Below are positions 15,950 through 57,109 of a stretch of DNA of 64,000 nucleotides, in pieces (position 1 is the stretch's first letter; every line of letters starts with the position of its first letter). Where the stretch lies: the NCBI GenBank assembly GCA_001875255.1, contig MJAN01000005.1, forward strand, positions 1 through 64,000, written 5' to 3'. This stretch comes from Candidatus Sabulitectum silens. Lineage in GTDB: Bacteria > Fermentibacterota > Fermentibacteria > Fermentibacterales > JCC-6. The position numbers and the translations under genes were made by a program. The notes beneath the pieces were generated by a model that was not told the DNA's origin, did not search any database, and was given only the letters and a program-made list of their open reading frames with translations.

Positions 15950-15983
15950 TTACGCAATCTATTTGTCAAATTTACGGATGGCT
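15950..15983 (-). repeat. dispersed 34-bp element, copy 1
   Basis: A minus-strand copy of the 34-bp repeat (starts AGCCATCCGTAAATTTG, ends ATTGCGTAA). It contains the last seven codons and the TAG stop of the FN3 lipoprotein gene (15959-15961), encoding AIRKFDK. Beyond the core toward the M16 terminator, similarity to the other copies fades. See the finding on this family. Confidence 0.9.
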
Positions 15984-16357
15984 TCAGCTCCAACGGTAAC
16001 ACCGGCCTCGTTGGACCAGGTGGAGAAGCCTCCTTCGTTGGTAACCTTGAGGGCATAGTACCAGGTGCCGGCGGAGAGGTTCTCGTCGTAGTACTCTTTG
16101 TCGTACCTGTCGTAGAAAACCCCGAGAACCGTGGCGGAGCCGGGGTTGTTCTTTATGTCCCCCACCTGAGAGCGGTAGAGGGTGTAGCTGTAGAAGTCGT
16201 CGTCGGGAGAGGCGTTCCACCGTACCCTTGCCGTTGACGGGCCTGTGAGCAGAACGGTGATGGCAACGCCGGAGGGGCCGGGGTCGAAGGGGTTGTCGGG
16301 CCCGCAGGCTGATATCAGTACCAGAAACAGTACCGCAGTAACCGCGAGCCCTCTCAT
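15959..16357 (-). CDS. FN3-domain lipoprotein ending in the repeat element
   Basis: A 132-residue lipoprotein: signal MRGLAVTAVLFLVLISAC with the lipobox ISAC, then one fibronectin type III-like domain (VRWNASPDDDFYSYTLYRS, GTWYYALKVTNEGG, WSNEAGVTV). I start at 16357 because GGAGG lies 6 bases before that ATG; the upstream in-frame ATG overlaps this site. The last seven codons and the stop lie in the dispersed repeat, so the C-terminus AIRKFDK may be an acquired tail. It follows the next lipoprotein gene by 24 bases, and the FN3 domains of the two are related. Confidence 0.75.
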   Translation of the reverse strand: MRGLAVTAVLFLVLISACGPDNPFDPGPSGVAITVLLTGPSTARVRWNASPDDDFYSYTLYRSQVGDIKNNPGSATVLGVFYDRYDKEYYDENLSAGTWYYALKVTNEGGFSTWSNEAGVTVGAEAIRKFDK

Positions 16358-16381
16358 GACAACCTCCATATTAATCAGGTT

Positions 16382-17377
16382 CTACTCAGTGATATCGTCA
16401 TCGTCCCTGGCCTCGAGCTTGTAGTTGTCGTAGGTGTAAACGAGTATGCCAATTATCTCGCTGAAAGTGTCACCTGAAGCAGCAGGATACTGGTAGGCCT
16501 TCACCATTCCAGTACCGGAGCCGTCATCAACCAGGAACTCACCATACTGGTCAGGATCCGTGGTGGCGGTCACATCGGAAATGGAGACGAAAACTGCCTC
16601 CCATTTCTCCTGGTTGATATCAACTGTGGAAATTGACTCGGGACCGGGGATAGGATGGCCGCTCTCTACGAAGTCCACAGACTGTACGACCACCTCTGTG
16701 AGATCATAAAACTCCTGCACATACCCGGAAACGACAACACTGTCTCCCCTCTGGAAGCTATCCATTATGCCCTCGTAGCCATAAAGAAGCAGTCCTGACC
16801 ACTCCCCTCCCTGGGAATCCATGATGGAGACAAGCTCACCGGAAGAGTTGTTGTAGAGTTCACCGGAGGCGGATGTAACTATTCCTGTCACCGTTACATC
16901 GTCGCCGTTGTAGGGTGATTCGTCCTGCTGGCCCTGTATCTCGTAGCAGGAGAGGACGCCACCGCCTCCACCACCGCCGGAGGAGTCCGGTGTGGTGATG
17001 GACACCTCGTTGCTCCAGGCGGTGAGCTGGGAGGAGTCGACTGTCTGGAGGGCGTAGTAGTAGGGGGTGTTCCAGGCGAGGTTGGCGTCGGTGTGGGTGA
17101 GTGTGGCTATATCGGTGAAGGTGCCCACCAGTGTTGCTGAAGAGGGGCTGGCGGCTATGCCGGAGGTCAGGGAGCGGTAGAGGTTGTATGAGGCGAAATC
17201 GGTGTCGGGGCACTGTGTCCAGGTGAGTGTGGCGGTGTTCTGACTGACAGCGGCTGAAAGTGTGGAGGCCGTTGGGTTGGTTCCGCCCCCCTGGGGGTTG
17301 TCCTCGTCGTCGCCGCAGGCGAAGACAAGGAGGAAAGCCATGAGAACGGCGGTGGCCGCCGTGATGCGAAGGGTCAC
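16382..17377 (-). CDS. lipoprotein with FN3 and OB-fold domains
   Basis: A 331-residue lipoprotein: signal ending LLVFAC, an Asn/Gly/Thr-rich spacer, and an FN3 domain similar to that of the downstream lipoprotein (CPDTDFASYNLYRS, TPYYYALQTVDS, WSNEVSITT). A run of seven glycines follows, then a C-terminal OB-fold-like domain (EIQGQQDESPYNGDDVTVTGIVTS, DSVVVSGYVQEF, VDDGSGTG) resembling those in YhcR/ExeM-type surface nucleases and DUF5689 proteins. No nuclease domain is present, so binding rather than catalysis is likely. The start is GTG with GAGGAG upstream. First gene of a two-gene unit. Confidence 0.75.
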   Translation of the reverse strand: MTLRITAATAVLMAFLLVFACGDDEDNPQGGGTNPTASTLSAAVSQNTATLTWTQCPDTDFASYNLYRSLTSGIAASPSSATLVGTFTDIATLTHTDANLAWNTPYYYALQTVDSSQLTAWSNEVSITTPDSSGGGGGGGVLSCYEIQGQQDESPYNGDDVTVTGIVTSASGELYNNSSGELVSIMDSQGGEWSGLLLYGYEGIMDSFQRGDSVVVSGYVQEFYDLTEVVVQSVDFVESGHPIPGPESISTVDINQEKWEAVFVSISDVTATTDPDQYGEFLVDDGSGTGMVKAYQYPAASGDTFSEIIGILVYTYDNYKLEARDDDDITE

Positions 17378-17488
17378 TTCTATCTCCTCTCGGTTTTTCG
17401 GTTCTGCCTGTGTAACATAATTCAGTGAATCTCGTTCCCGTAACCGTTAATTATAATCGGGGATCATTCCTGAAGGAACGGAGAAAAT

Positions 17489-19539
17489 ATGCTCGCTGTT
17501 GTTTTGCTGATGCTGCTGCCCCCGCCCCGGCGGAGATACCCCATGAGATAACCTTTCACGGCCATACAAGGGTCGACGACTTCTACTGGCTGAGGAACAT
17601 CGAAGACCCGGCGGTAACTGATTACCTCCTGGCGGAGAACACATACACCGACTCCATCATGGCCAGGTCCCGGGAACTGATGGATACCATTCTTGAGGAG
17701 CTGATCGAAAGGATACCTGAGGACGAGTCTTCGGTGCCATACTACAGGAACGGCTGGTGGTACTGGTACGAATACCCCCCCGGGGCCGACTACGCAGTGA
17801 ACATGAGAAGGACCCACCCGGACGGTGAGCCCCTGGTGCTCCTCGACGAGAACAGTTACGGTGATCTTTACGGGTACTTCGACGTCGGGATGATCTCCGT
17901 GAGCCCGGACAACCGCACACTGGCCTGGGCCTACGACACCACCGGAGGCCACTGGTACACCCTGGTCTTCCAGGATATCCATACAGGGGACACACTGGAC
18001 GTCATAAACAATGCATCCGGGGACCTGGCCTGGGCGGCGGACTCCCGGATGGTGTTCTACGGCCTGAACGACAAGACTGGAAGGACCGAACGGATCATGC
18101 GCAGGACCATAGCCTGCGACGACGAGATAACCCTTTCACCGAGGAGGACCCCACCTTCTGGCCCTGGGTGGAGAACTCCACCGACGGCAAGTGGGTGCTG
18201 CTGGGCACCGCCAGCTCACTTGAATCCGAGTACCGCATACTGCCCTCGGCCACCCCACGGGATTCCATGGTCCTGGTGCATCCCCGTACCGAGGGCTTGA
18301 ATACTACATCTACCCCTCGGATTCCACCCTTTTCATTCAGACCAACCTCCCCGGAGAGAACTACGCGGTGATGCGGGCCCCGGCCTCTTCCCCGGGAATT
18401 GACAGCTGGACCACTGTGATACCCCACGACGAAGGGACCCTGATAGAGGAACTCGACGTGTTCAACGATTTCCTGGCGGTCTCCCTTCGCAGCGGCGGTC
18501 TCAGAAGGCTCTACCTTGCCGACAGAGAGACCGGCGGGGGCCGTTACGCCGACCTGGGCGGGGAACCCGCCACATTCTACACCTCGGCAAACTACTCAGC
18601 GGATGCGGATTCCATCAGACTTTTTTACACCTCACTCACAACGCCGTGGTCCATGATCTCCTACCATGTAGAGGACGATTCCGTGAAGACCCTGAAGACC
18701 ACATTCGCCGGGGAAGGCTATGACCCTGACCTCTACACCGCCGAGAGGATAATGGTGCCCGCCGGGGACGGTGCCCTCGTTCCGGTGGGAATGGTATACA
18801 GGACCGACCTCTACAGCCCCGGGGAGAACCCGCTGCTGCTCTACGGATACGGGGCCTACGGCATGAGCCTGGACCCTATGTTCAGCGCCGGTCTCCTCTC
18901 CCTTCTGGACAGGGGCTTCATATACGCCGACGCCATGTGCGGGGGGGAAGCGAAATGGGCCGGAGCTGGTATCACCGGGGCAGGACACTAAACAAGATGA
19001 ACTCCTTCACCGACTTCATAGCCTGCGCCGAATACATGGCAGACCAGGGATACTGCGACGCTGAGAGGATATTCGCCATGGGAGAGAGCGCCGGCGGTCT
19101 CCTTATGGGTGCGGTTACCAACATGAGGCCGGACCTGTGGCGGGGAGTGGTCGCAGGTGTTCCCTTCGTGGACGCCCTTACCACCATGCTTGACCCCACC
19201 ATACCCCTTACCACCAACGAGTACGACGAATGGGGCAACCCCGGTGAAGACCCCGAGGCATACCGGTACATCCTCTCCTACTCACCGGTGGACAATCTTC
19301 ACGAAACTGAGTATCCCGCCATGTACGTCTTCACCGGGGTGAACGACTCCCAGGTGGGCTACTGGGAGCCGGCGAAGTGGGTGGCGGGAATACGCAGGGT
19401 AAACACCGGTGATTCTCCCGTTCTTCTCAGGGTTAACATGGGCTCGGGCCACGGAGGCAACTCGGGAAGGTACGGCTGGCTGGCGGACACCGCGGAAAAG
19501 TACGCCTTCATACTGGAACAGGCGGGTATCAGGGAGTAG
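17489..19539 (+). CDS. secreted prolyl oligopeptidase family (S9A), oligopeptidase B-like (frameshifted)
   Basis: The ATG at 17489 opens a hydrophobic signal (MLAVVLLMLL). A C run near 17520 then shifts the frame into the family start (HGHTRVDDFYWLRN). The beta-propeller half is followed by an alpha/beta hydrolase with GYGAYG, HVRGGSEMGR, nucleophile Ser in GESAGG, Asp in GVNDSQVGYWEPAKW and His in GSGHGG. Frames change near 17520, 18130, 18290 and 18955, always by one missing base. About 690 residues. An exported peptide-cleaving enzyme that may work with the neighbouring M16 peptidase. Its end overlaps the convergent GGDEF gene by 11 bases. Confidence 0.85.
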
Positions 19540-20496
19540 GCTTCCTGTACTTACAGGTGCAGTTCCTTCCCGAGGACTTCGCCTGGTACATGGCGTTGTC
19601 GGCCTTTTTCAGAAGCGTACCGGTTTCGTCCCCTGCTTCTGCCTGGGCGATACCCAGTGAGATGGTAACCGGCGGCAGGACCCTGCCGTCGGTTGTTATC
19701 ACCTTTGTTTCGCTTATTGTCTTCCTGACCCTTTCCGCCACGATCCAGGCGAATTCCATTGGAACACCGGCCAGCAGTATTATGAACTCCTCCCCGCCGT
19801 ACCTGGCGCAGAGGTCCGTCGGGCGCAGGCTGTCCACCGCCATCCTGGCCACGGCGGAAAGGACGTCGTCGCCGGCGTCGTGCCCGTAGCGGTCATTGTA
19901 TTTCTTGAAGTAGTCCACATCGAAGAGTATCACACTCAGAGGCAGGTCGCTGAGTGTGTGCCGGGCCAGGAGCCTTGGAAGCTGAACCTCCACCCAGCGG
20001 CGGTTCTTCAGGCCGGTGAGGACATCAAGCATGGCGTCTTTCTCGAACCGCCGGCGCATTCTGATGTTCTCGGTAATGGTATCGTCGCTGGCCCTCATCC
20101 TGTCCGCCAGGAGCAGGAGCATGTTGCAGGCAAAGGCGTGGGAGGCGGAAATGAGCCCCCAGAACGAGGCCTCGTCCACCTCCAGTATCCTGGATGGCTC
20201 CTTTGCCACCACGAAGGCCGATGCCGGGCTGTCATCGATCACCGAGAGTTCGCCAACGGTTTCACCAATGTTCAGCACCGCCACGGGATCGCTCTCGGGG
20301 CTGTCGAGGTGCACCGTGAGCGCACCCTCAAGTATGATGTAGAGTTTCTGGTTGCTCTGGCCGGCCTGATAAGTGTTTCCCCCTTATCCATTTCGATAAC
20401 TGGACACTCGCGGAAAACCTCCATGGCCTGGTCACCGGAAACCCTTCTGAGGATGAAAAGATCCTTTATATCGTTTATGGTAAGCGAGTTGTTCAT
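19529..20496 (-). CDS. cNMP-binding-domain diguanylate cyclase (frameshifted)
   Basis: An N-terminal cyclic-nucleotide-binding-like beta-roll (residues about 10-120, with GETVGELSVIDDSPA typical of the CAP family) is followed by a GGDEF domain. DVDYFKKYNDRYGHDAGD holds the metal Asp, GGEEF is the active signature, and RPTD five residues before it is an intact inhibitory I-site. It should therefore make c-di-GMP and be product-inhibited. One frame change near 20370 lies inside the cNMP domain. GGAGGGG precedes the ATG. No c-di-GMP phosphodiesterase is nearby. Confidence 0.85.
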
Positions 20497-20626
20497 TGCC
20501 CCTCCAGAAAATGCATTTGTACGAACTCTTTGGAATATTGAAGACTACCGCTCAAAAAACCAGTTCTCCACTTTCTTTTCCGCGGGAAATAGAATATTTT
20601 GCCCGTATCAACCGGAGGTGTATTTA

Positions 20627-21274
20627 ATGAACACATATCCCGCAGTGAGAGATCCGGGTTCCATCGAGCTTCTCTTCAGAAGCGTGCGAAACAGCCCCCG
20701 GCCCGACAAGATAACCACCGACTACCTTGCTTCCATCGGATTCCGCCGGCAGTCCGACGTAAAACTCCTTGAGCTTCTCTTCTTCCTGGGCTTCATCGAC
20801 AGCAACCTCTCCCCCTCGGAGCTCTGGAACGCCGCGTCGGACTCCGATGAAATCGCCTTCGCCTCCATCCTTGCAGGGGCTCTGTCGAAATCCTACTCCA
20901 AGGTCTTCGAAATCTATCCCGACGGCAGGAACATCGACGGCAAGGCCCTGATGACCCTCTTCAAGGAACAGACCGGAGTGTCGGACACCGAAGCGGCCTA
21001 CATGGTCCTCACCCTTCAGGTCCTGGCGGACATGGCGGACTTCGGCAAAGGCGAAACCCTGCAGCAGAAATCCCCGCCGTCCCGGCGCCTGAGGAAGAAA
21101 AAACTGAACCCTCCCCCTCCCTCCCGGATGTTCCCGACGAGCCCGCCACCCACCATCGAGATCCCCCGTGAGGGCCTCTCCCTGAACATCACCATACCCC
21201 CGGAGGCCATGGACAAGGAGATGACCGAGATCGTAAAATCCCTTCTTAAAGCCATCCGTAAATTTGACAAATAG
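20627..21274 (+). CDS. DUF5343 family protein ending in the repeat element
   Basis: A 215-residue protein with the DUF5343 (PF17278) pattern: RPDKITTDYLASIGFRRQSD, LLFFLGFIDS, YSKVFEIYPDG, and the conserved LNITIPPEA tail. The family is small, alpha-helical and of unknown function, and in my experience is scattered in accessory or defence-rich regions. GGAGGTG is placed well before the ATG. A Pro-rich linker lies at about residues 150-185. The last seven codons and the TAG stop lie in copy 2 of the 34-bp repeat, giving the C-terminus AIRKFDK shared with an unrelated lipoprotein. Confidence 0.75.
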   Translation: MNTYPAVRDPGSIELLFRSVRNSPRPDKITTDYLASIGFRRQSDVKLLELLFFLGFIDSNLSPSELWNAASDSDEIAFASILAGALSKSYSKVFEIYPDGRNIDGKALMTLFKEQTGVSDTEAAYMVLTLQVLADMADFGKGETLQQKSPPSRRLRKKKLNPPPPSRMFPTSPPPTIEIPREGLSLNITIPPEAMDKEMTEIVKSLLKAIRKFDK

Positions 21275-21283
21275 ATTGTGTAA
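21250..21283 (+). repeat. dispersed 34-bp element, copy 2
   Basis: A plus-strand copy, one mismatch in the last part of the core (ATTGTGTAA). It covers the 3' end of the DUF5343 gene. With copies 4 and 5 it aligns without gaps for about 65 bp (21247-21311), adding AGCAG and TAAAGCATG blocks downstream. The TauE permease start is 50 bases beyond the core. Confidence 0.9.
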
Positions 21284-21333
21284 GCTCTAGCAGTACAACA
21301 ATTAAAGCATGCACTACCAGGGAAGATAACGTC

Positions 21334-22144
21334 ATGGAAATAGAGATTATAGCCGTTCTTTTCGGCATGGCCTTTTTTTGTGAGCTCGTGGATTCCACAC
21401 TGGGAATGGGATACGGAACAACACTTACACCGGTGCTTCTTCTTATGGGATATCAGCCTATGCAGGTGGTCCCGGCGATACTGCTTTCAGAGCTTATTAC
21501 CGGGGGATTCGCCGCCTTCGCCCACCACAGGCTGGTAACGCCTTCTTCGACTTCAGGAACGACACTGACCACAAGATCGTGAAAAGATGGGAGCGCTGGG
21601 CTATCTCCCAAAATCGAATGATGCCCGGATTGCCTACATACTGGGCATCTGCAGCCTGATCGGCGCGGTGGGGGCGGCGATCTTCGCCGTTAACCTGAAG
21701 GCGTATCTTTCACCGATCATAGGCTTCATTGTGCTGGCCATGGGAATACTGATCCTGGTAAGGCACAGAAGCCCCGGCGGATTCAGCTGGAAGAAGGTCA
21801 CCGGCCTGGGAGTAACAGCCGCCTTCAACAAGGGCCTCTCCGGTGGAGGTTACGGCCCCCTGGTGACCAGCGGTCAGATACTTTCCGGCGTTAACGGAAA
21901 GAGCGCAATTGCCATAACCAGCATGGCGGAAAGCTTCACCTGCCTGGTGGGGGTGGTTACCTACCTCATCATTGGAACACAGGTCAACTGGGGCATTGCT
22001 CCTCCGCTTATTGCCGGAGCAGTGCTGAGCGTACCTCTCAGTGCCTTTCTCGTGAAGAGAATAAACACTGAGAAGTTCACCCTTGCGGTGGGCATCGCCA
22101 CCACGGCACTAGGAGCGTTGACCCTCTATAAGGTGTTCTTCTAG
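21334..22144 (+). CDS. TauE/SafE family permease (frameshifted)
   Basis: A sulfite exporter TauE/SafE (DUF81) family membrane protein of about 270 residues with eight or so helices. The N-terminal half contains CELVDSTLGMGYGTTLTPVLLLMG and the repeat of the motif comes later as FNKGLSGGGYGPLVTSGQILSG, both typical of the family. The substrate is unknown; sulfite, sulfonates or organic anions are known for relatives. One or more frame changes lie between 21540 and 21590. It ends tail-to-tail against valS with overlapping stops. Confidence 0.85.
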
Positions 22145-24484
22145 AGGTAGTTGATCACCTCGGCCCGGGTAACCGCAAGCAGGTCCGCCTCGAAGGGCTT
22201 CAGCTCGGCGGGGGCATCGATGGAGTCCAGGGGGGTGGCCATGCTGAGGTTGTTCTCGCTCTTCCACCTTCTTGCCTCCTCTATCACCGTGAGGGCACTG
22301 TTGCCAAGGCGGAGAGCCTCCGGGTCCATGTAATCCCTTTCAGGCCATGGGGCCACATGTATCGAGGGGTGCTTCTCCGTGTCCATGAACACTCCGTGGT
22401 ACAGCTCTTCTGATATGTGAACCAGTATCGGGGCGAAGAGCTTCAGCACAGTGTAAAGGCTGTGTACAGCGTGTACTGGGCGGCTTCCCTTCCCCGGCTG
22501 TCGTCGCCGTAGAGCCTGCCCTTGGCAATCTCCAGATAGTTGTCGCATAGCACCTTCCAGAAGAAGCCCTCGGTTTCCCTCATACAGGTGGAGTACTCGT
22601 ACTGCTCCATTCCCGCCGTGGCTTTCCTGACGGTATCGGTGAGCCTGCTGAGAAGCCATCTGTCGAAGGGGTGGAGTTCCACTTCCCTGGCGGGGTCGAA
22701 CCCCTCCAGTCTGCCTTCGGCGAACCTGGTGGCGTTCCAGAGCTTTGTCACGAGCCTTCTTCCCTCGCCGAGAACATCCTTGCTGAAAACAACATCGGTC
22801 CCCAGTTTCGAGGAACAGGCCCAGTATCTGAGCTCGTCGGCTGAGAACTGCTCGAGGGCGGCAATGGGATCACCGGCAACATTGCCCTTGCTCTTGGACA
22901 TTTTCTGCCGGTTGGGGTTCAGTGAGTGACCGGAGATCATTACATGGCTCCAGGGTATGGTGCTGGAGTGGAGAAGTGACTTTGCGATGGTGTAGAACGC
23001 CCATGTCCTGATTATGTCGTGGGCCTGGGGTCTGAGGGCCATGGGGAAGATGTTTTCCCTCTGGTCTTCCTCGCCCCACTTCCAGTTTATCTGGGGGGTA
23101 AGGGAACTGGTCGCCCAGGTATCCATTACATCGCTTTCCGGCCTGAAAGCACCTCCTCCGCACTGTGGGCAGGGGCTCTTCGGGCTGTCCACCAGGGGGT
23201 CCACCGGAAGGTCTTCCTCCCTGGCGAAAATGGGGCGTCGCAGTCCTCACAGAACCACAGGGGAAGGGAACACCGTAGAACCGCTGCCTTGAGATGCACC
23301 AGTCCCACTTCAGGTTTTCCACCCAGTGGTCGTACCGCACCCTGAAATGGGCGGGGTGCCATTTGATCTCGCTGCCCTTTTCAAGCAGCTTATCCTTGAG
23401 GTCGAGGATCCGGATGAACCACTGCATGTTCACAAGGTATTCCAGAGGGGTTCCGCACCGTTCATGAACGTTCACCGCGTGGCTTATGTCTTCCCCGCCG
23501 GTCCTGTGGCCCTCGGTGTCCAGCCTCTCCACTATCACCTTCCGGGCCTTCTTCCAGTACATGCCCTGGAGGAAGCCGGTCTTTTCGTTCATGTGTCCCC
23601 GCTGGTCGAGGATTATTCTCAGGTCGAGGTTGTACTTCTCCCACCACTCTATGTCTGTGGTGTCGCCGAATGTGCAGCACATGACCACTCCGGAGCCCTT
23701 GTCAGCGGCGACCTTCTCGTCGGCCAGTATTTCCACCTCCCTGTCGTAGAGGGGAACCAGTGCTTTCCTGCCCACAAGATGTTTCCACCTTGCGTCGGAG
23801 GGGTTCACGAAAACAGCCACACAGGCGGGTATCAGCTCGGGTCTGTGGTGGCGATGGGAATGGTGCCGCTGCCGTCGGCCAGTTTGAAGAGAAGGTCGTG
23901 GAAGTGGCTGGGGAACTCTTTGTCCTCGGTTTCCGCCTGGGCAACTGCGGTCTGACATTCGGGACACCAGAGCGTGGGTGAGTTCTTCCTGTAGACCCTT
24001 TCCTTCTCCACAAGATCAAGGAATGATCTCTGGCTGAGCCTCTGCACCCACGGGTCGATGGTGGTGTACATGAGGGACCAGTCGCAGCTGAAACCGAAGC
24101 TGTTCCAGAGATCCCTGAACTGAGCTTCGGCGTCCTTTGCAACCTCGAGGCAGAGCTTAACGAACTCGCCCTGGTCATGTCGGTGGCCTTTACGTTCTTC
24201 ACCTTCTCGGTGAACCTTTCGCTGGGCAGACCGTTGTCATCGAAGCAGAAGGGATAGAAGACCTCTTTACCGGTCATTCTGTGGTATCTGGCCATTACCT
24301 CGGCCTGGACATAACTGAATATGTGCCCCATATGGATCATTCCGCTCACCGTGGGCGGCGGGGTGTCTATTGAGTAAACCTGCCTGCCGGAATCGGGGTT
24401 GAACCTGTAAATGCCCTCTTCCTGCCAGTGCTTCTGCCACCTGGGCTCCGATTCCTTGGGGTTGTATCTCTTTGCCAGTGCCAT
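22141..24484 (-). CDS. valS: valyl-tRNA synthetase, archaeal-like type (frameshifted)
   Basis: A class Ia aminoacyl-tRNA synthetase charging tRNA-Val. The HIGH motif appears as HMGH in TPPPTVSGMIHMGHIFSYVQAE; the editing domain includes TRPELIPACVAVFVNP (partly out of frame); KMSKSKGN is the second ATP motif. FCFDDNGLPSERFTEK and the short length (about 780 residues, no C-terminal coiled-coil arm) mark the type found in archaea and a minority of bacteria. Frames change near 24190, 23850, 23240 and 22450. The start codon overlaps the glyS stop by one base; last gene of the operon. Confidence 0.9.
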
Positions 24485-25822
24485 CAGCTCTGCTCCTGTC
24501 CTTCCCAGCCCCGGGCCATTATTCGGCCCATGACCTCCACAAGGCTGTCTATGTCTACCCTGATCTGTTCGAGTGTGTCACGGTCCCGGATGGTCACCCT
24601 GTTGTCCTCAAGGCTGTCGAAATCGAATGTGATGCAGCAGGGTGTGCCTATTTCGTCGTTCCTTCTGTACCTCTTGCCTATGGAACCGGTTACGTCGAAA
24701 AGCACCGGCCAGTGGGGCCTGAGCAGGTCGGCGACCTTTTCCGCAGGTTCGCTGAGCTTCTTTGAAAGGGGAAGGACCGCCGCCTTCACCGGGGCAAGCT
24801 TCCTGTGGAGGCCGAGAACCACCCTGGTGCTGCCGTCGATCTCCTCTTCCCGGTAGGCGTCAAGCATTACCATGAGGAAGGTTCTCCCCACTCCCCCCGA
24901 GGTTTCCACCACATAGGGGGTTATTTTCTTTCCGGTTTCCTTGTCGAGAATGGTCAGGTCCTTGCCGCTGCCTGCCATCTGGGCCTTCAGGTCGTAATCG
25001 GTCCTGCTGGCAATGCCCTCGAGTTCTCCGAAACCTTCCTCACCGGAGAAGGGGTACCTGTATTCGATGTCGGTGCATCCCGTTGCGTAGTGGGCAAGTT
25101 CCTTTTCCGTATGCTTTCTCAGCCGGAGATTCTCCTTCTTTACTCCAAGGGTGTCGGTGTACCAGTTGAACCTCTTTTCCACCCAGTACTCGTACCACTT
25201 CTCCCACTGGTCGGGGTGACAGAAGAATTCCATTTCCATCTGTTCGAATTCCCGGCTCCTGAAGATGAAGTTCCTCACGGTTATCTCGTTCCTGAAGGCC
25301 TTGCCGATCTGGCGATGCCGAAGGGAAGTGATCTTCTGGTGGAGGTTACGATATTCTGGAACTGGGCGAAGATAGGCTGACAGGTCTCAGGGCGGAGATA
25401 GACCATGGAGCCCTCGTCCTCGAGGGGACCCATGAAGGTTTTGAACATGAGACCGAAGTTCCGGGGCTCGGTGAGTTCACCACCGCACTCGGGGCAGCGG
25501 TGGCCCTCTATGTGATCCTGCCGGAACCTGCCCCTGCATTCCCTGCAGTCCACCAGGGGTCGTGAAAGTTCTTCAGGTGTCCCGATGACTGCCAGACATT
25601 CGAATGGGTAATTATGGCGGTGTCCACCCCAACCACATCGGAGCGGGAACGGACCATTTCATGCCACCACAGTTCGGTGATGTTCCTTTTCAGCTCGGCC
25701 CCCAGGGGGCCGTAATCCCAGGCGGACTGAAGACCGCCGTAGATCTCGCCGGACTGATAAACGAAACCCAGCCTTTTCGCCAGGGAAATAATGTTCTTCA
25801 TAAGGTCGTTACCGGGTTCCAT
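24484..25822 (-). CDS. glyS: glycyl-tRNA synthetase, alpha2 class II type (frameshifted)
   Basis: A homodimeric class II GlyRS: the N-terminus has [19 protein letters not shown], a Zn-type cysteine segment follows (CRECRGRF and CPECGGE), then [13 protein letters not shown] and FRNEI (motif 2, partly out of frame) and [10 protein letters not shown], with the C-terminal anticodon domain ending near 24490. Frame changes lie near 25550 and 25300. The ATG at 25822 has AAGGAG 7 bases upstream and overlaps the recO end by 14 bases. This type is standard in archaea and eukaryotes and common in some bacteria, unlike the alpha2beta2 enzyme. Confidence 0.92.
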
Positions 25823-42072: not shown

Positions 42073-42088
42073 GAAAGGAACCTGCAAC

Positions 42089-45284: not shown

Positions 45285-45316
45285 TTTTCACCAGCTTTCC
45301 TCCCGGCATCAGGGGA

Positions 45317-48185: not shown

Positions 48186-48214
48186 TCGGCATCTTCCTTT
48201 CTGTAGGCACTCCT

Positions 48215-48513
48215 CTACCGGAGAATGGAAAACCTCCGGAGTAGGGTTCGCCCGGGCCCTTCTTCATTACTTCCACGCAGTGCACTGAAGCCCCGGGAGG
48301 GCCGTGATGGAGCAGTTCCATCATGCTTTCCACGGCGTCTTCATTCCCGGAGAGGGCGGCTTCCACCGACCCGTCGGGCAGATTCTTCACAAAACCGGAA
48401 AGGGACAGGCTTCTGGCCCTGGAAAGCACCCAGTACCTGAACCCGACTCCCTGAACCTGGCCGCGCACCCTTACATGAACCGTAATATAACCGGCTTCAG
48501 TATTATCGATCAT
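48215..48513 (-). CDS. acyP: acylphosphatase (probable frame break near the end)
   Basis: A small enzyme that hydrolyses acyl phosphates. The active loop GQVQGVGFRYWV and the catalytic Asn in GFVKNLPDGSVEAALSG are intact. Past residue 90 the frame runs on into the next gene; a one-base correction near 48250 gives a normal ending (RRFSILR, stop at 48215-48217) and a length of about 98 residues. It lacks a Shine-Dalgarno: the start codon sits 6 bases after a -10 box, so its mRNA is probably leaderless. First gene of the operon that continues to rnd. Confidence 0.88.
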
Positions 48514-48519
48514 GTTGTT

Positions 48520-48548
48520 TCTATAGACCAGATTCCCATTTCAGTCAA
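48520..48548 (-). promoter_or_regulatory. sigma-70 promoter of the acyP operon
   Basis: Minus strand: -35 TTGACT (48548-48543), a 17-base spacer and -10 TATAGA (48525-48520). The ATG follows only 6 bases after the -10, placing the predicted transcript start at the start codon itself. Confidence 0.7.
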
Positions 48549-48635
48549 GCTCTTTTTCCATCAGTTGACCTCAAAGGGTTATGTTAGCATGCTTTCGTGA
48601 TAAGATGAGCATCATTTTCTCAAGGAGGGGTCAAA

Positions 48636-50616
48636 TTGAAAACTGCCGTTATCCTGCTTATGACACTTGGAATAACCGCCGCCGTGGCGGCTCCTTCTAT
48701 ATGGGGCGTGCCCGGACTCTACCGGGTGAGCAGGGCCATGCCGCTTGGGTTCAACGAAATGTCTTTCGGCATAGGATTGAACTACTGGACCGCGGCGAAC
48801 GAATACAGAAACTTCATCTACCACAGCCACTATCTTCCCCAGACGATCCTCTTTCCTGAGATCACCGAAACGGAACACACCGGCCAGGGAATGCTCACCC
48901 TGGGCTACGGCGTCTGGGACTATGTGGACATTGCCGCCATCGCCACCTATTCAGGCACAATGTACGAGCGAGACCTCTACGAAGAGCGCTCAACAGGCCA
49001 CTGGGAGAATGTTCACGGTTTCGAAGGAGTCAACCTGGCGGTCCACGGCGGTTACAACCCCATCCCGAACCTCGAGGATGTGATCTGGTTCGGTGGTACC
49101 TTCAGGTTTGGCATGTCCCCGGCGGATACCGCCTTCATGAGGGCCCTGGATGACCCCGATGGCAGATGGCATACCGGTCAGATAATAAGTACTCTCAGAA
49201 AGCCCTTTACCACCACAGGCAACTCCTCCCTGGGGGCAGACCTTCTGATTTCCGGAGACTTTGGCAGATGGATACCTATGGCGGCGGTGAAGGCTCACCT
49301 CAACCTGGGCTATTCGAAGTATACCCAGAACTATCATTTCACGGATTTCCGGGTAGAAGCAGACAGCGTTGGCTGGAGCTACTCCGACTCCACCGACATC
49401 GCTCTCGAAGTTTCCGACGGCATTTTCTCCTGGGCCTTTGGTATTGAGATCCCACCCCCACGCCGATATTTTCTTTGAGTATTCCAGCCAGAAGCTCCTC
49501 GACCGCGACGATGCAACGGTTTCCTACTTCACCCCTGGCATCCGGTTCAAGAATGCTTCCGGCACATTTATAGATGTCACCTTCGACCTCAGCACCAGCA
49601 CCTTCGATCCCCTCTACTACGACCTGGGGCATGGCCTCTATCAGCAGGGCGAGGTCACCGAGGCCGACCGCGCAGAAAGGGCACCCCTTCCCATAGGCGG
49701 CACCTTTGACTACGGTGTTGGTATCGGAGTTGGCTTCTCCTCAGACATGATGACCGAAGACAATGGCCCAGATCTCTCCACCCTCAGCGGAGTGGTAACC
49801 GATTCCATCACCGGACTGCCGGTGTTCGCCACCATTACCTTTCCCGGAGTGCCCATCGCCAACGTAACAAGTGACGAGGAAACAGGTTTCTACACCCACC
49901 GCATACCAGCAGGTGAGGTTCCAGTAACGGTAATAGCCGGGGGTTACGCCCCGGCAAACGCCATGGTGGTAATGGGCCGCGAGCAGTCCGCCACTCTGGA
50001 CTTCGCCCTGGTTCCCAACCTGGGCACCATCAGCGGTTCTGTGAAAGACGGCCAGGGCAGGCCGATCGAGGGAGCCTCAGTTACCATCGGAAGCACCGAA
50101 CCGGTCACTGTCAGCACCTCCAGCGCAGGTGTTTTCACCGCCCAGGTGGAAGCCGGCACATGGCCTATAGCGGTCCAGGCCGATGGCTTCATAGCCGACA
50201 ACAAGTCGGTAACAGCAATTGCCAATGAAACTGTCCGTGTGGAGTTTTCCCTCAGGCAGGCCCTTCGCGAGGGCGAAGTGATGAGCTTCGACAACATCTA
50301 TTTCGATTCCGGCAGTGCGAACATAAAGCCGGAAAGCTACCCCATACTGGACAGTGTGGCCATCCTTCTTCGTGACAACCCCTCAGCAAGGATGCAGATA
50401 GCCGGTCACACCGACAGCGACGGCAGCGCCAGCTCCAACCAGACCCTAAGCGAGCGCAGGGCCCAGTCGGTTTACCAGTACCTTGTAAGCAAGGGAATAG
50501 CGGGCAACAGGCTTACCACTATTGGCCATGGCGAATCCAACCCCGTAGCGCCCAACGACAATGCCGCCAATAAGGCCAGGAACAGAAGGATAGAGTTCAC
50601 CGTACTCAGCATATAG
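48636..50616 (+). CDS. OmpA-family protein with carboxypeptidase-type repeats (frameshifted)
   Basis: Signal peptide (MKTAVILLMTLGITAAVAA), then a beta-barrel-like N-terminal domain to about residue 375. Two carboxypeptidase-regulatory-like Ig domains follow: LSGVVTDSITGLPVFATITFPG and ISGSVKDGQGRPIEGASVTIGS. The C-terminal OmpA/MotB peptidoglycan-binding domain has FDSGSANIKPESYPILD, GHTDSDGSASSNQTLSERRAQSV and ESNPVAPNDNAANKARNRRIEF. A C run near 49455 breaks the frame. TTG start with AGGAGGGG upstream. It links outer membrane and peptidoglycan. Confidence 0.88.
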
Positions 50617-50633
50617 AACTGCAGCATCGCCAG

Positions 50634-50666
50634 GGGGTCCGGCGGAATGCCGGGCCCCTTCTTCTC
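50634..50666 (+). terminator. terminator of the OmpA-family gene
   Basis: A 10-bp stem (50634-50643 with 50649-50658, one G-U) with a 5-base loop, followed by TTCTTCTC. It lies 17 bases after the stop. Confidence 0.85.
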
Positions 50667-50763
50667 GTGTGGGCGTTGTTGCCGGGGATGATCGAAGGAC
50701 ATCCGCCAGGTTGAGAACAGGCCCATGGTGTATTAGTTTCCAGACTTGCTTTAGGAGGCGGGT

Positions 50764-51775
50764 ATGAACGAGGCCGGGGCCTTTCTCAACGGTCTGTATG
50801 TGTCTCTGGACATCATTGGCCAGATGGCCCTGCTTGTCCTGCTTGGCTTCATAATGGTCCGCAGGGGATGGATAGGCGATGGCACCATGTCCGACCTTAC
50901 CCGTTTCCTGATAGACGCGGTGATCCCCGCTGCCTTCATACTGGCCATGACCCGTTCCTTCACATTCGAACTCCTTGAACGTGGAGGAGTACTCGCCCTT
51001 GTGGCCACTGGATGGATCCTTATCTCCTGGCTTTTCGGAACCCTTTGGTTTCGGGCGTTCCCGGGGATATCCCCATCGAAGGACAGGGCGGTCACAGCAA
51101 TGATGATGATTTCCAACAGCCTGTACCTTCCCCTGCCGGTAATACTCGCGGTTACACCTCCGCAGCTCCATGACCAGGCCATCGTCTACATATCGATAAT
51201 CGCCGTTCCTTCTTCTCTGGCCATGTGGACCGCCGGTGTTCTACTTCTTGGTGGTTCGGGGGTTCCTTCGGTCCGCCAGCGGCTGAAGCTGGTGTTCAAT
51301 CCCCCATTGATATCGCTGATAGCGGGAATACTCCTTACACTGATTCCAGGTGTAAGGGAAACGGCCAGGGGTGAAGCCGGGGCTTTCGTTCCCCTGAAAA
51401 GCCTTTTTTCCGCCGCCGGCTACCTCAGCAGCCTTCTATCCCCACTGGCAATGCTCATACTGGGCGGAATGATAGCTTCGGGGATGGGAAGGGGCGAGGC
51501 CGGTCTCAGGAACTCGCTTCCCCTGATCATCATACGGCTCCTGCTGGTCCCGGCGGTGGTCTATGGCCTCATAAGATGGGCCCTTCCCGGCCTTCCCCCA
51601 CTGGCAGCCACCATTCTCCTGCTGGTTTCCGCCGGCTCCCCCGGCAACGAACCATGCCCTTGTGGCCCGTAGATACCACGGAGAGTGGGAACTTGTTGCT
51701 TCTCTGCAGCTCGTGGTTCATCTTGCAGCACTTGTCACGCTGCCCCTCTGGCTGAGCATGGGGCTCAATCTGTAA
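50764..51775 (+). CDS. AEC-family auxin-efflux-carrier-like permease (frameshifted)
   Basis: About 337 residues with ten predicted helices in two five-helix halves: the first begins MALLVLLGFIMVRRGWIGD, the second LISLIAGILLTLIPGV, with a short loop between. ISNSLYLPLPVILAV and the NHALVARRY region near the end are typical of AEC (PF03547) transporters. A C5 run near 51640 appears to hold one extra base. Substrates in bacteria include dicarboxylates; unknown here. AGGAGG precedes the ATG. Copy 3 of the dispersed repeat lies 19 bases after its stop, in the opposite orientation. Confidence 0.85.
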
Positions 51776-51794
51776 GGTCTTAGTCTGCTTAGTT

Positions 51795-51828
51795 TTGCGC
51801 AATCTATTTGTCAAATTTACGGATGGTT
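51795..51828 (-). repeat. dispersed 34-bp element, copy 3
   Basis: A minus-strand copy with three differences (AACC at the left edge, GCGCAA at the right). It is the exception in context: it lies between two plus-strand genes, 3' of the AEC permease and 27 bases before the propeller lipoprotein, so no gene in its own orientation ends in it. TAAGCAG after the core still matches copies 4 and 5. Confidence 0.9.
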
Positions 51829-51855
51829 TTATATATCTTTCCAGAAAGGAGAGCC

Positions 51856-52989
51856 ATGAAAAGAACATTCTATCTCTTATCCATTGTGCCCCTTCTGGCG
51901 GGCTGCGGCAGCAGGCCCCTTGAGGAAGACCCTTCCATGGGTGCCATCCCTGACACCATTACCGTTTCCCCCCGGGATACCATTGGGATCCTCTTGGGCG
52001 ACTCAAACTACGTCTTCGCAACCATCGCCGATGCAATAACCCTGGACGGAGGAGTGACCGCGATCCTTGACGAAGCCAAGGGATGCGCCAGACTTTACAC
52101 CCCCGAGGGTGAGTTCATAAGGCAGGTGTCCAGAAGCGGCAGCGGCCCCGGCGAACTGCTCAGGCCCGGAGGGATCGTCAGGCTTTCGGACAACACCATA
52201 GGGATACTGGACCATGCTACGGGATTACAGAGGTTCTCCGCCTCCGGTGAATTCATGGAACTCAGGACCGATTTCCTCGGGCAGAATGTCCCGCAGTGGG
52301 CCTGGGGGGTGAACGATATGGGATATGTAGGCGCCATAACGAAGATGGAGCCATCTGAAGAGGAGATGATCGTAAGCTTCATAGTAGGTAGATGGGACGA
52401 TGCCTCAGAGCCAGGAGTGGAATACTTCAGGAACAGCTTTTCCTTCAACCCCCAGCGAATGGACGAGTTCCTTCGGAACTCTTTCTTCTCCGCCAGTTTC
52501 GCAGCTTCTCCGGAGGGGTTGGTGTACGTGGCTCCCACTTCTTCGGAAACCTATGAAATAGATGTTTTCAACCCCGATGGAAGCCTTCTCACCACCATAA
52601 GCAGGGAAATGCCCCGTGTATCCAAAACCTCCGAGGAGCTTGCCGATGAGACCGCCATGATGACCGCCATACTGAAGGAAAGGGGAATACCGGAGGACCA
52701 CATAATGTACGAACCGGATCCCTATCGCTGGATGATTCAACCCCAGGGCCTTGGGGCCGACGGCGAAGGCCGGGTCTGGGTAAGGAACGGAACCAGCGAT
52801 CAGGTCATCATGGATGTGTACGATACCGGGGGTGAGCACCTGGCGGTGGTGCGGTTCCAGGGGGTTACCCAGCCTGGAAGCATGGATTTCATCAACCTGA
52901 AGGTCCAGAATGGGACCATTCTGGTTTACTCCCTTCAGGACCCGGAATATCCCAGACTTTATGTGGTGGACATGCCGGAGATCCCCTGA
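51856..52989 (+). CDS. six-bladed beta-propeller lipoprotein
   Basis: A 377-residue intact lipoprotein: signal MKRTFYLLSIVPLLAGC with a LAGC lipobox. The mature protein has repeated blades (LYTPEGEFIRQVSRSGSGPGELLRPGGIVRLSDNTIGILD, RFSASGEFMEL, LGADGEGRVWVRN) typical of 6-bladed NHL/TolB-like propellers. I start at 51856 with AGAAAGGAGAG upstream; a longer frame would begin inside the repeat copy. Function unknown; such proteins bind ligands or partners at the cell surface. It converges with the FG-GAP gene. Confidence 0.8.
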   Translation: MKRTFYLLSIVPLLAGCGSRPLEEDPSMGAIPDTITVSPRDTIGILLGDSNYVFATIADAITLDGGVTAILDEAKGCARLYTPEGEFIRQVSRSGSGPGELLRPGGIVRLSDNTIGILDHATGLQRFSASGEFMELRTDFLGQNVPQWAWGVNDMGYVGAITKMEPSEEEMIVSFIVGRWDDASEPGVEYFRNSFSFNPQRMDEFLRNSFFSASFAASPEGLVYVAPTSSETYEIDVFNPDGSLLTTISREMPRVSKTSEELADETAMMTAILKERGIPEDHIMYEPDPYRWMIQPQGLGADGEGRVWVRNGTSDQVIMDVYDTGGEHLAVVRFQGVTQPGSMDFINLKVQNGTILVYSLQDPEYPRLYVVDMPEIP

Positions 52990-52992
52990 GCT

Positions 52993-54653
52993 TCAGAGCA
53001 CCACGACCCTTGCTTCCGCCACTCCGGATGGGGTTTCGTACCTCAAGAGGAACAAGCCTGTCCGTTCACCGGGGTCCCACAGCACCGATCCGGATAGCCC
53101 CTGGTCGGCCTGATAACTCTCCACCAGCCGTCCTGAACAGTCGAAAACGGACAGCTGGCCGCTGCCCGGGGAAAGGAATGCAACAAGGGCTCCACGGCAG
53201 GGGTCTGCGAAACCCTGAGAAGGGGAAGACCGTGAACCGGAGCCGGAGAAATGCTGATACCGGAAAAGCCCTCGCCCTCAACCGCGGTAATGTGCTGGTT
53301 CGCAGTTATGCCGTAATGGGTTCCACAAGCCCCGAGGGCCAGTGTATCTCCAGAGAATCCACAGTTCAGCATCGAAAAGACCGAACTCCAGGGGAAGCTG
53401 TGAAGATCATGGTAGCCCTCACCGCCCTTTACCCATCGGGTAAGGGCGGTTGACCCGAACCGGGCGGTGGCCCAGGCACCCACAGCATCCCGGTTGGAAT
53501 CGGTCCGCGGAGTGTTACCGTGAGATAGTTGGCAGGGAGGGTTTCGCTCTGGTCATTCCTGAACAGCACGTACTTGTCTATGTGTCCCACTGCGAAGAGA
53601 TCGATGTCTCCATCGTTGTTGTAGTCCCCCAGGCTGTACCGAAGTAGTCTCCCATGAATTCTCCGGAAAGCCCCAGCTCGCTGCCCACATCGGAAAATGT
53701 GCCGTCGCCGTTGTTCCTCCACATGATATTGGAGTAGGTGTAAAAATCGTGGTGTGAAGCAAAAATGTCCAGCCAGCCGTCGTTGTTGTAATCGGTGAAG
53801 GCAGCGGTCCGGGTGTCGGTGTGACCGGTTACCCCGGCGGCGGAGGTGACATCTGAGAATGTGCCATCTCCATTGTTCTCGAAGAGCTTGCACCCGGGAG
53901 AACTGTAGTTGGCCAGGTAGAGGTCCGGAAGGCCGTCGTTATTCCAGTCGCCCACTGTTATTCCCGTGGTGCTTCCTCCGAACTCTACCCCGGCGGCGGC
54001 GGTCACATCGGTGAGTGAACCGCCGTCGTTCCGAAGAAGGGTATTGGGGGAGCTGCCGTAGGTCCCCAGGTATATGTCCGGGTCGCCATCCATGTCGTAG
54101 TCGATGCATGCGGCGCACCACCAGCTGCCGACCGCCGACGGACCCTGGGCAAAGACCCCGGTGCCGGAGTTCAGCAGTACCTGGCATCCCGAAGAGGTAA
54201 GGGAAAGCAGGTCCAGGTTTCCGTCGTTGTTGAAGTCCGCTACCAGCGCAGGGGCTCCGGTTATGCCGCTGCCGGCAGTTATCTCCGTGAAGGTTCCGTT
54301 GCCGTTATTCTCAAAGAACTTCGTGGAGGAACTCCGTGACAGGATGAGGTCGGTATGGTCGTCACCGGTCATTTCTCCCCAGAGGATCCTGTTGGCCCCA
54401 GTCCTGCTAGACCAGCCTGTGCTGTTACATCGGTGAACTGGGTCCCGTCGTTCCTGTACAGCCAGAAGCCGGAACCGTCCTGGTTGGAAAAGGCCACATC
54501 GAGATCACCGTCTTCGTTGTAGTCGCACCAGGAGACCCCGTGCCCAAGTCCATTCTGACCGCCTATGCCCATCTGGGCGGAAACCTCGGTAAAGACCTGC
54601 TGGGCAAACCCGGTGGAAACAGCCAGCAACAGTGTTATCGTCCTGAGAAACAT
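52993..54653 (-). CDS. secreted FG-GAP/ASPIC repeat protein with C-terminal sorting-like tail (frameshifted)
   Basis: Signal peptide MFLRTITLLLAVSTGFAQ. At least six Ca2+-binding FG-GAP/VCBS motifs follow (DYNEDGDLD, DFNNDGNLD, DYDMDGDPD, DWNNDGLPD, DYNNDGWLD, DYNNDGDID), then an ASPIC/UnbV-like segment (NRDAVGAW, TRWVKGGEGYH) and a FlgD/T9SS-like tail (LSVFDCSGRLVESY ... GLFLLRYETPSG). Frames change near 54390, 53640, 53500, 53330 and 53200. Likely a surface or secreted calcium-dependent propeller. Its leader and signal peptide are close copies of those of the GH85 gene next upstream. Confidence 0.8.
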
Positions 54654-54727
54654 GTCGCCCCTTTCCGCAAAGCAAGCTTCACTTCCCCTGTTAGTAGGTC
54701 ACGTTTAAATAGTTCCACTGCTTTTGC

Positions 54728-54761
54728 TTACGCAATCTATTTGTCAAATTTACGGATGGCC
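54728..54761 (-). repeat. dispersed 34-bp element, copy 4
   Basis: A minus-strand copy starting 3 bases after the GH85 stop codon (54765-54767). Aligns gap-free with copies 2 and 5 for about 65 bp (54764 down to 54700). The FG-GAP gene starts 75 bases beyond the core in the same orientation. Confidence 0.9.
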
Positions 54762-54764
54762 TTA

Positions 54765-57002
54765 CTACAACACCATACACTTCCTCGTAAGGGAACCGGC
54801 GGGGCAGTCCAGCTTGTAGACATAAAGACCCGATGGGACAGTATCGGTGTTCCAGTTCACCCGGTACTCTCCCGCCTGGAGTTCCGCGTCCACCAGATTC
54901 TCCACGACCCGGCCGGAGAGGTCGTAAACCCGAAGGGTGGTCCTGCCGGGGCCGGGGAGATTGTAGCCAATTGAGAGGATGCCTCTAACTGGATTGATTG
55001 CAGGATGCTGAAGGAAGAGTGAGCCGGAGTTCCCACCGCCGATGCCTGTGGTCTCCCAATCTATTGTGGTGGATACAGCCTCTGAGAAACCAAATTCCGG
55101 ACTCACTGCCTCGATGAGTATCTCCGTCTGTTCCTCACCTGGAGGCCTTGTTACCAGAGGAACGAAACAGGCGTTGCCGGGGGTTGCCCAGAGGAAGGTT
55201 CTGCTATCGTCGGCGTTAAGTCTGTAAACATTGTATGTGTAAACATCCGATGGTGAATGCTCCCACCTGAGCCTTATTGCCCCGCTGGTGTCATCCATCT
55301 GGCTGAACTGCTCCACATAGGTCCGGAAGGTGGCTGGGGGATATCGGTCTCTCCCCTTATGACCCCCATCCTCCCTATGAGGGCGGTGTAGTCCTGTACC
55401 GCCTCCGTGGTGGAAAAATAGATCCCCGCCACCGCCATGGTGGAGCCGGACTGTCCAGCCAGGGAGTAGGTGAAGGTATTCCAGCCTGGGGTTTCCGCTT
55501 CGGGAACCTGGATATACTGGAAGGTTTCCGGGCTGCTTGCCAGGGACATGGCCGCTTCCATTCCAGAGGGGTCCCCGGAGTTCTCTGCGTACCACACAAG
55601 GAGAAGGGAATCCGAGGGCTCTATTACCGCGTCGGTCTTGAACAGATAGAGCATGGTGCCGTTACCCGGATTAAGGTCCCCTGAGACCTTGAGGCAGTTA
55701 CCGCCATAGTAGGAGCTCTCCCAGCTCATTTCAGGGTAGAGGGGGGTGGAGGAACCGTGGGCCATCCATCTCCATGTGGGCAGAACATCCTGCTGGCTTC
55801 TGTTGTGCCATTCCAAATCGGAGAGCATATCCCCCTCGATGGAATACATGTAGCCCTGCCCGGTGTTGAAGTTGGTCACGAAGGGGAAGGAGGTGATGGG
55901 GGTCCTGGCGGCGTAGTAGTGGGCAAGCCCCTTCCAGGGATGGGGGGTGTCGGTGTTCGATGGATCCCTGTTCGCGCCGCTCCAGAAACGGTTCGCCCTG
56001 GTATAGAAGGCCTGGTGGCTGGCGGCGTTGGTGTATGTCCAGTTAGGGCAGTAGAACCCCAGGGAGGTTACATGGTCGCCCTCCACGGGAAAGATGGCGT
56101 TCCAGTCCACCCCGGTGTTGTAGCCGTTCGCCTGGACATCCACACCGGCATAGAGCTCATAGGGGCTTCGTCCAAGCGACAGGGCATGGGTAGCTGAATT
56201 CTGAAGACCGGCGGCGCTCCACCAGAAGTTAAGGAACATATGCTGTGACACAAGGTCGTCGCCGTACTGAAATACCAGTCGTTGTTGTCGTTAAGGGCGT
56301 TCTGCCAGTTGATTCCCCCGGCCTCGGTCATGGCGTCATACCACTGTATTTCCAGATCGGAATTCTGCTGTATGTATATCATGAAGTCACGCATGTCCTG
56401 GGCAAGCTGGGCATTGCCCCCGGCGGTCTCCTGATTGATGAACCAGCCGTCAAAGCCGTAGTATTCAGTCATTTCGATGAGCTTGTCCGCAACCGGGAAG
56501 GTGGATCCGTCCTTCTGCACAAGGTCCCACACCCACTGTATCTGACCTCCGTAGGCCGTGGGTGGCAGGAAGATGGTTCCGTAGACCGGGACACCATTTC
56601 TGTGTCCGGCGTCTATTACCCCGGGATTAGGGGCCAATATGAGTCCCTCACCTGAGCTTCCACCCCAGAATGTGAGATGATCGATGTACTGCCAGTAGTT
56701 GAAGGCGTAGCAGTCGATGCCCGTTCCGCCCTGGGAAGGGTTGAAGCTGGTTGAGGGATACATGATGCTCAGGCTGAAACTCCGCCCTGATCGATACTGG
56801 CATTTGCGTTGCACTGGGTATCGCCGTAGGAACGGCTGGCCAGGGAAATGAAGCTCCGATTGTAGGGGGCGTCGGCGTCCCCGGCGGGGGTCCAGGCAAG
56901 GAGTTCATTAGGGAACCAGTAGGAAGCATAGGGCTGCCCGGGGGGATCCTGGGCAAAACCGGTGGAAACCGCCAGCAGAAGTGTGATCATTCTAAAATAC
57001 AT
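54765..57002 (-). CDS. secreted GH85 endo-beta-N-acetylglucosaminidase (frameshifted)
   Basis: Signal peptide MYFRMITLLLAVSTGFAQ. The catalytic domain matches GH85: FNYWQYIDHLTFWGG, APNPGVIDAGHRNGVPVYGTIF and YYGFDGWFINQET, where the N-Q-E triad holds the catalytic Asn and Glu of substrate-assisted catalysis. A carbohydrate-binding-like beta region, an FN3-like segment (RLRWEHSPSDVYTYNVYR) and a FlgD/T9SS-like tail (TTLRVYDLSGRVVENLVDAEL, PSGLYVYKLD) follow. Frame changes lie near 56790, 56240 and 55330. GH85 enzymes release N-glycans from glycoproteins, so this organism may use eukaryotic or host-derived glycoproteins. Flanked by repeat copies 4 and 5. Confidence 0.85.
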
Positions 57003-57075
57003 GTCGCCCCCATCCGTTAACCAAGCCTGCAAGACCCAAAGGCGGGTCATGCTTATATTGTTTTACCGCTTATTG

Positions 57076-57109
57076 TTACGCAATCTATTTGTCAAATTTA
57101 CGAATGGCT
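57076..57109 (-). repeat. dispersed 34-bp element, copy 5
   Basis: A minus-strand copy directly abutting the tadA stop codon (57110-57112), zero bases between. One core mismatch (ATTCG). Extended similarity to copies 2 and 4 runs to about 57048. The GH85 start lies 74 bases beyond the core. Confidence 0.9.

Follow-up and report, generated by a model that had tools for sequence, protein, structure and literature searches.

A dispersed 66-bp repeat with 3'-end polarity in Candidatus Sabulitectum silens, probably the solo ends of a REPtron/TIRtron-like unit

The first 64 kb (64,000 nucleotides) of contig MJAN01000005.1 (C5) of Candidatus Sabulitectum silens, a draft assembly of 2.92 Mb in 94 contigs that is 71% complete, is referred to here as the window, and it raises the question of what kind of element the short repeat is that recurs in it, mostly at the stop codons of genes. 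A sequence-only reading of the window had described five near-identical copies of a 34-bp repeat, all of which are found in place with few mismatches, and had proposed a recombination site, a cassette boundary or a transcript-end signal without a hairpin. The analysis presented here suggests, with a probability of roughly three in four, that the repeat represents solo copies of the end sequences of a REPtron/TIRtron-like unit (REP, repetitive extragenic palindrome; TIR, terminal inverted repeat) with a transposase of the RAYT/TnpAREP type (Y1, HUH), because a gene of the RAYT/TIRYT type is found between inverted copies of the repeat and because the repeat is dispersed through the genome. Sister-species genomes, contigs and loci are designated by G, C and L numbers, respectively.

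A model built from the sequences of 32 copies, with which the host assembly was searched at E values up to 1, detects 60 copies of the element, spread over 12 contigs and with five of them in the window; the weakest of these matches has an E value of 1.1e-4, the scored candidates being 150 of the 469 from the first pass, and the number of 60 is a lower bound because the assembly is incomplete. A 21-mer core used as the pattern, with up to three mismatches, has 47 matches in the host genome, whereas its reversed control has none. Fifty pattern-derived copies can be aligned almost without gaps over about 66 bp (one of them is short of a base in the left module), and the left edge of this alignment is sharp, such that the 34-bp repeat is real but is only the left part of a longer element. 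The left edge is preceded by a YR (pyrimidine-purine) dinucleotide and begins with AAGCCATCCGTAAATTTGACAAATAGAT, followed by a looser right part in which GTAA, TTG, CAA and TTAAGCATG occur at fixed spacings. The 40 copies having a right end like TTAAGCATG are named class A and the other 20 non-A; ten of the latter have the right motif TCAGGC at offset 62-66, a motif that the transposase unit (see below) also has at its upstream end. The mean pairwise identity of the class A copies falls from 93% in the left 28 bp to 52% in the right 38 bp, compared with 26% in the flanking sequence, and the identity of the left 28 bp across all 60 copies is 87%. The dinucleotide before the left edge is CG in 21 copies, TA in 16, CA in 13, TG in nine and GG in one, and it is therefore of the YR type in 59 of the 60.

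The orientation of the copies relative to genes is strongly polar. When the gene calls of a purpose-written small Markov gene finder are used, which are not a curated annotation, together with the tRNAs detected by ARAGORN, the left edge is located between -12 and +26 nt from the 3' end of a gene on the same strand in 31 of the 60 copies (27 protein genes and four tRNAs, one of which is of a type not assigned by ARAGORN), and the mirror measure, in which the right edge is compared with gene ends on the opposite strand, gives 0 of 60. Random placement within the same loci, confined to YR sites in non-coding DNA or in the last 27 nt of genes, puts 4.1 copies there on average and never more than 12 over 2000 trials, which supports the placement at gene ends. 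The offsets are +25 in 14 copies, +12 in four, 0 in four and -3 to -12 in nine. In the 14 copies with an offset of +25, among which are those at moaC and at two patatin-like genes, the preceding gene reaches its stop codon, a TAG or TAA, 25 nt inside the element; in this way the element alters proteins, as both the C-terminal residues and the stop are supplied by it. The names moaC and patatin, as well as gatD, NFACT, php, phosphatase, CDP-alcohol transferase, uvrA and reductase below, were assigned by reading the protein sequences. The two patatin-like genes are paralogous (C2:470964-471974 and C2:307480-308474), both end in element-encoded KAIRKFDK, and one of them is flanked by two copies with inward-facing left edges.

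The sense orientation at gene 3' ends is a feature known for the attC sites of integrons, and the host also has an integron integrase gene (TIGR02249, 302 bits, with a cut-off of 265). A recombination site of the attC kind at the 3' boundary of gene cassettes, corresponding to the cassette boundary proposed earlier, is nevertheless extremely improbable. Pairing RYYYAAC/GTTRRRY boxes are present in none of the 60 copies, whereas one attC is detected by the same scan in the integron array of G009 (L243; none in L244), and the two ends of the element do not pair in the 13 sequences compared, such that both the boxes and the folding of attC are absent. Moreover, none of the 12 contigs with copies is the integrase contig. 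The integrase gene itself is located at a contig end (C21:151-1417, L233), and a 13-bp tandem repeat array is present on the same contig (L239 4739-4894); the relatives have long tyrosine recombinases too, with an attC-like site near that of G009.

At orthologous loci that lack the element, in sister species of the same genus, the genes have native ends. In the moaC, phosphatase-like and CDP-alcohol transferase-like genes (the last compared with three relatives) the final codons of the host gene are element codons, unlike those of the relatives. The last codons and the stop of NFACT stay in place across 12 genomes, and the element follows them only in the host and G006. In eight of the 13 genomes compared at gatD, none of which has a recognisable element there, the stop of this gene, by reading, overlaps the following start or lies almost against it; the element is directly behind this stop in the host, G006 and G002, and other spacers occur in G005 and G007. 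No element is found at the nine tadA gene ends of relatives that were compared. The php end, compared for four of 11 loci, is occupied in the host, in G003, in G012 (by a decayed copy) and in G001, and in G005 and G006 the end of moaC likewise has diverged copies; at such shared sites the host copies nonetheless bear the left module particular to the host.

A second model, built from ten copies of relatives and two of the host, which match by construction, was used at E values up to 0.5. It matches 61 sites in the host, 12 in G006, five each in G003 and G012, two each in G002, G007 and G008, one each in G001, G004, G005 and G009, and none in G010 and G011, matches with E values near 0.1 and above being possibly due to chance. 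Of 12 copies of relatives viewed in context, seven end an open reading frame (ORF) of at least 100 codons, two follow a tRNA-like sequence and three are unclear, these being mechanically defined ORFs and tRNA-like calls made without a tRNA search. Three of the matches (G002:C109, G012:C79 and G006:C79) are the 3' ends of radC and may be native coding sequence; those of G002 and G012 are not counted as evidence for the element. The last 26 bases of radC in G002 and G012 have two to three differences from the left module of the relatives, and the host radC end differs; the radC end may be the origin of the module, or it may be an old insertion.

Beyond these genomes, an exact sequence match is found neither in the genome-contig and viral-contig collections, which may lack records very close to the host, nor among plasmids, and phages give one 20-nt match (E = 0.5). 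In a pattern scan of 40 genomes four match, these being the host and three genomes with a single two-mismatch match each, a level also reached by the reversed control. The sequence thus has no match in the collections searched, as the sequence-only reading had it when no named family was recognised; the kind of repeat, however, does have a name, being that of the REP/TIR-type repeats that flank a RAYT/TIRYT-like transposase gene.

The placement at gene ends is also compatible with a hairpin-less, protein-dependent terminator or a 3'-end processing signal, for which a DNA- or RNA-binding factor would hold the 28-bp module constant and act on transcripts arriving from the left. The polarity at the 3' ends of both protein genes and tRNAs, the near-invariant left module next to a diverging right half, and the uniformity of the host copies, when compared with the differing copies of relatives at the same gene ends, agree with such a signal. 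It remains unlikely, because copies occur within apparent operons, as at gatD, where about 11 bp separate the host element from the start called next and where the gene junction reads as so tight in eight of the genomes, because 29 of the 60 copies are off sense gene ends, and because the element is absent from most of the compared gene ends of the sister genomes. An intrinsic terminator is not found either, there being no conserved G+C-rich hairpin with a T run inside the element. A conserved fold of RNA or single-stranded DNA is not detected (no pairs in an alignment of 13 sequences and no signal in six folded strands); the sole palindrome, ATTTGACAAAT, forms a 4-bp ATTT/AAAT mini-hairpin in five of the six minimum-energy folds. 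Rfam has no match above the gathering score in the window and gives only tRNAs at 20 further host loci. The presence of TTGACA within the module led to a promoter being considered and rejected, as no conserved -10 element is seen in the column counts, no promoter scan having been run.

The unit that is the most probable source of the copies is on contig C1, at about 121,789-122,879, outside the window. The sole Y1_Tnp match of the host assembly (PF01797, E up to 0.001; 29.6 bits, over the cut-off of 23) is at C1:121919-122239, between the inverted copies C1:121789(+) and C1:122879(-), which have their left edges outward and are identical in 25 of 28 bases. One of these copies abuts the end of a reductase-like gene and the other the end of an ORF resembling the C-terminus of uvrA. 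The Y1 protein matches NCBIfam REP_Tyr_transpos with an E value of 2.4e-16 (59.9 bits, under the cut-off of 80), and its best relative in the Protein Data Bank is TnpArep (4er8), with a non-significant E value of 0.15. A second ORF, in a different frame, has a weak HTH_23 match below the cut-off (E = 0.0063). When right halves are compared, 37 of 39 class A copies are matched better by the unit's downstream end than by its upstream end (mean z 3.55 and -0.32, respectively). A left module in the AACT variant, as present at the upstream end of the unit, is found in seven of the 20 non-A copies (that end included) and in one of the 40 copies of class A (Fisher p = 0.0013). Among the relatives, no Y1 match at E 0.001 is found in G001, G005, G006, G008 and G009. 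At nine Y1 loci of relatives the relatives' left module is absent within seven mismatches (six further Y1 matches are outside this set); the host Y1 protein has no tblastn match to these nine loci, and six of them have a readable ORF that is IS200-like by reading.

A miniature inverted-repeat transposable element (MITE) of an ordinary (DDE) insertion sequence, with insertions elsewhere purged by selection, would also account for short dispersed units, for the imperfect inverted similarity of the consensus ends (GCCATCCGTAA / TTAAGCATGNC) and for the seven neighbouring pairs of copies with outward left edges within 1.2 kb of each other, at spacings of 189-1125 bp, of which the transposase unit is one. 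This origin is considered very unlikely. There is no target-site duplication, direct repeats across the insert being no longer than in permuted pairs, and the 700-bp flanks of 50 copies have nothing in common past the element save neighbouring copies, short matches and paralogous genes. In addition, if selection against disruption acted alone, about four copies would be expected at sense 3' ends in place of 31, with no polarity, and the gene between the inverted copies is of the Y1 type (no search aimed at DDE genes was made). A retroelement was rejected as well: three of four reverse-transcriptase matches of the host, on C8, are among Rfam group II intron matches and look incidental, and the fourth, on C5, resembles a group II intron ORF in sequence but has no Rfam support in L232. 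The C8 region (C8:5503-9410, L231 1503-5410) contains two ORF regions of group II introns together with five matches to group II introns in Rfam, apparently nested; the introns are inserted after a terminator-like hairpin, and the intron end is about 9 nt upstream of the copy C8:9410. A terminator-like hairpin, recognised by reading, precedes this copy and also C4:110141.

For the REPtron/TIRtron-like unit, it is proposed that the transposase recognises the left module of about 28 bp, with GTAA beside the palindrome, on single-stranded DNA and cuts after a YR dinucleotide, such that solo copies of the ends would be pasted elsewhere without duplication of the target. The class A copies would then correspond to the downstream end of the unit, and a minority, with the AACT variant, to the upstream end. 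In about half of the copies the left edge lies at, or a few codons before, a same-strand 3' end, where the element gives the gene a new stop, and the preference for such ends may reflect tolerance of insertion there plus some form of targeting.

Several observations weigh against this proposal. The transposase frame is split over two overlapping ORFs (L374 2078-2743 and 2701-3045), and this copy of the gene may therefore be inactive or mis-assembled. The 19 other non-A copies do not resemble the upstream or the downstream end of the unit overall (mean z 0.2 and 0.66), and ten of them have only the TCAGGC motif, at a similar offset; the 29 copies away from sense gene ends, for which the gene-end placement claimed earlier does not hold, include several upstream of opposite-strand genes, as copy 3 of the window is, those behind a terminator-like hairpin (C4:110141 and C8:9410) and some without a called gene nearby; these two points lower the confidence in the proposal slightly. 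The motif GT[AG]G 5' of a folding palindrome, characteristic of canonical REPs, is not found, GTAA being before the palindrome and a folding signal being absent. An identity of 93% on the left versus 52% on the right is not expected from simple recent copying. Finally, the php, gatD, NFACT and moaC sites are occupied in the host and in some sister species, which implies either that the element entered one site more than once or that old copies changed together in the host, and the latter is not explained by mobility alone. The uniform left module at the shared sites suggests its upkeep by a binding factor, which would most simply be the transposase. A wider proposal, which we regard as rather unlikely when taken as a whole, is that a TIRYT-type Y1 transposase pastes solo ends at 3' termini in general (stop codons, CCA ends of tRNAs and positions after terminators) in one orientation, that transcription or exposed single strands, not sequence beyond YR, guide the insertion, and that a binding protein keeps the 28-bp module uniform at old sites.

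The five copies of the window and the genes ending at them are listed in Table 1.

Table 1. Copies of the element in the window and adjoining genes (window coordinates).
Feature	Position	Strand	Description
Element copy 1	15919..15984	-	Left edge 15984; second-type right end, CAGGCTTT motif
Element copy 2	21249..21314	+	Left edge 21249; right half class A
Element copy 3	51764..51829	-	Left edge 51829; right half a poor fit to both classes
Element copy 4	54697..54762	-	Left edge 54762; class A
Element copy 5	57045..57110	-	Left edge 57110; class A
Small ORF	15959..16369	-	C-terminus EAIRKFDK element-encoded; TAG stop within copy 1
DUF5343 gene	20627..21274	+	Pfam; C-terminus KAIRKFDK element-encoded; ends at 21274 within copy 2
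ORF with GH85_C	54765..55595	-	Pfam; Por_Secre_tail match just below cut-off; ends beside copy 4
tadA-like deaminase gene	57110..57553	-	Pfam cytidine-deaminase; TAA stop overlaps left edge of copy 5

The sequence-only reading had put four of these copies at or within 3 bases of stop codons. This is correct for copy 5, where the stop and the left edge overlap, and for copy 4, where the stop is 3 nt ahead of the left edge; at copies 1 and 2, in contrast, the frame enters the element and the TAG stop is 25 nt beyond the left edge, from which it follows that the last eight codons ([EK]AIRKFDK) are derived from the element. Copy 3 has no adjoining stop and lies upstream of a gene on the opposite strand, 27 nt from the start called for it at 51856. 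The gene labels given earlier are borne out by Pfam for DUF5343, GH85_C and the tadA-like cytidine deaminase, but not for the fibronectin type III (FN3) lipoprotein, as Pfam, FN3 included, has no match in 15959-16369; judged from its sequence, the product may be a lipoprotein. The absence of a hairpin between the stops and the element is generally correct, the one exception among the five being copy 1, whose right end is overlapped by the inverted repeat AGGGCGGTAC...GTACCGCCCT. The regions downstream of copies 4 and 5 (within 54369-57553) have 78 bp in common with 81% identity, which suggests a local duplication of gene plus element.

The spread of REP-type repeats is described as poorly understood in PMC8266576, and the present genome provides a test bed with one transposase gene, 60 solo copies, a near-strict junction dinucleotide and a 3'-end polarity that includes tRNAs; sister species such as G006 have decayed copies, with no Y1 gene found at E 0.001. 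What appears to be new is the sequence of the element and its strong 3'-end polarity, whereas the REP/TIR kind of repeat and REPs that give stops near gene ends are already known. Among the papers considered, in the sections that were available, none is seen to contain this sequence or a comparable test of polarity, and the comparisons that follow are likewise limited to sections of the cited papers.

RAYT genes are flanked by inverted REPs (PMC2817692), and REPs occur near the 3' ends of upstream ORFs, often giving a TAG stop (PMC3733652). The host unit resembles such REPtrons in having one transposase gene between inverted repeats and many solo copies near the 3' ends of upstream ORFs. The element differs from REPs by having GTAA in place of GTAG, by the lack of a real hairpin, by its length of 66 bp and by its variable right half. 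The polarity at tRNA ends, and a left module that remains uniform beside a drifting right half, are likewise less usual. TnpAREP cleaves at CT/CA dinucleotides (PMC8266576); the near-strict dinucleotide at the junction of the host element fits this, but the choice of bases, YR, is not the same. The seven outward pairs recall the neighbouring inverted copies of REPIN/BIME structures (PMC3116915), although the spacing is variable and most copies are single. The closest likeness may be sought in the TIRYT/TIRtron arrangement (PMC3733652), where a TnpAREP-related Y1 gene is between inverted non-GTAG repeats and where some TIRs are dispersed, as the host repeat is; the counterpart of this arrangement is probably subclass 2.1 of PMC6006769, where no REP-like sequences are reported near the subclass 2.1 genes in the section compared. 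A C-terminal helix-turn-helix domain belongs to the TIRYT proteins of subclass 2.1; in the host, the ORF that follows the transposase frame has the weak HTH_23 match below the cut-off, in another frame. A GGGGWSAS motif is present in many TIRs, including the majority of known TIRYT subclass 2.1 examples, and it is not in the host consensus, as the host copies begin with YR-AAGCCATCC. The polarity of the element and its YR rule are not described in the sections of PMC3733652 and PMC6006769 compared here.

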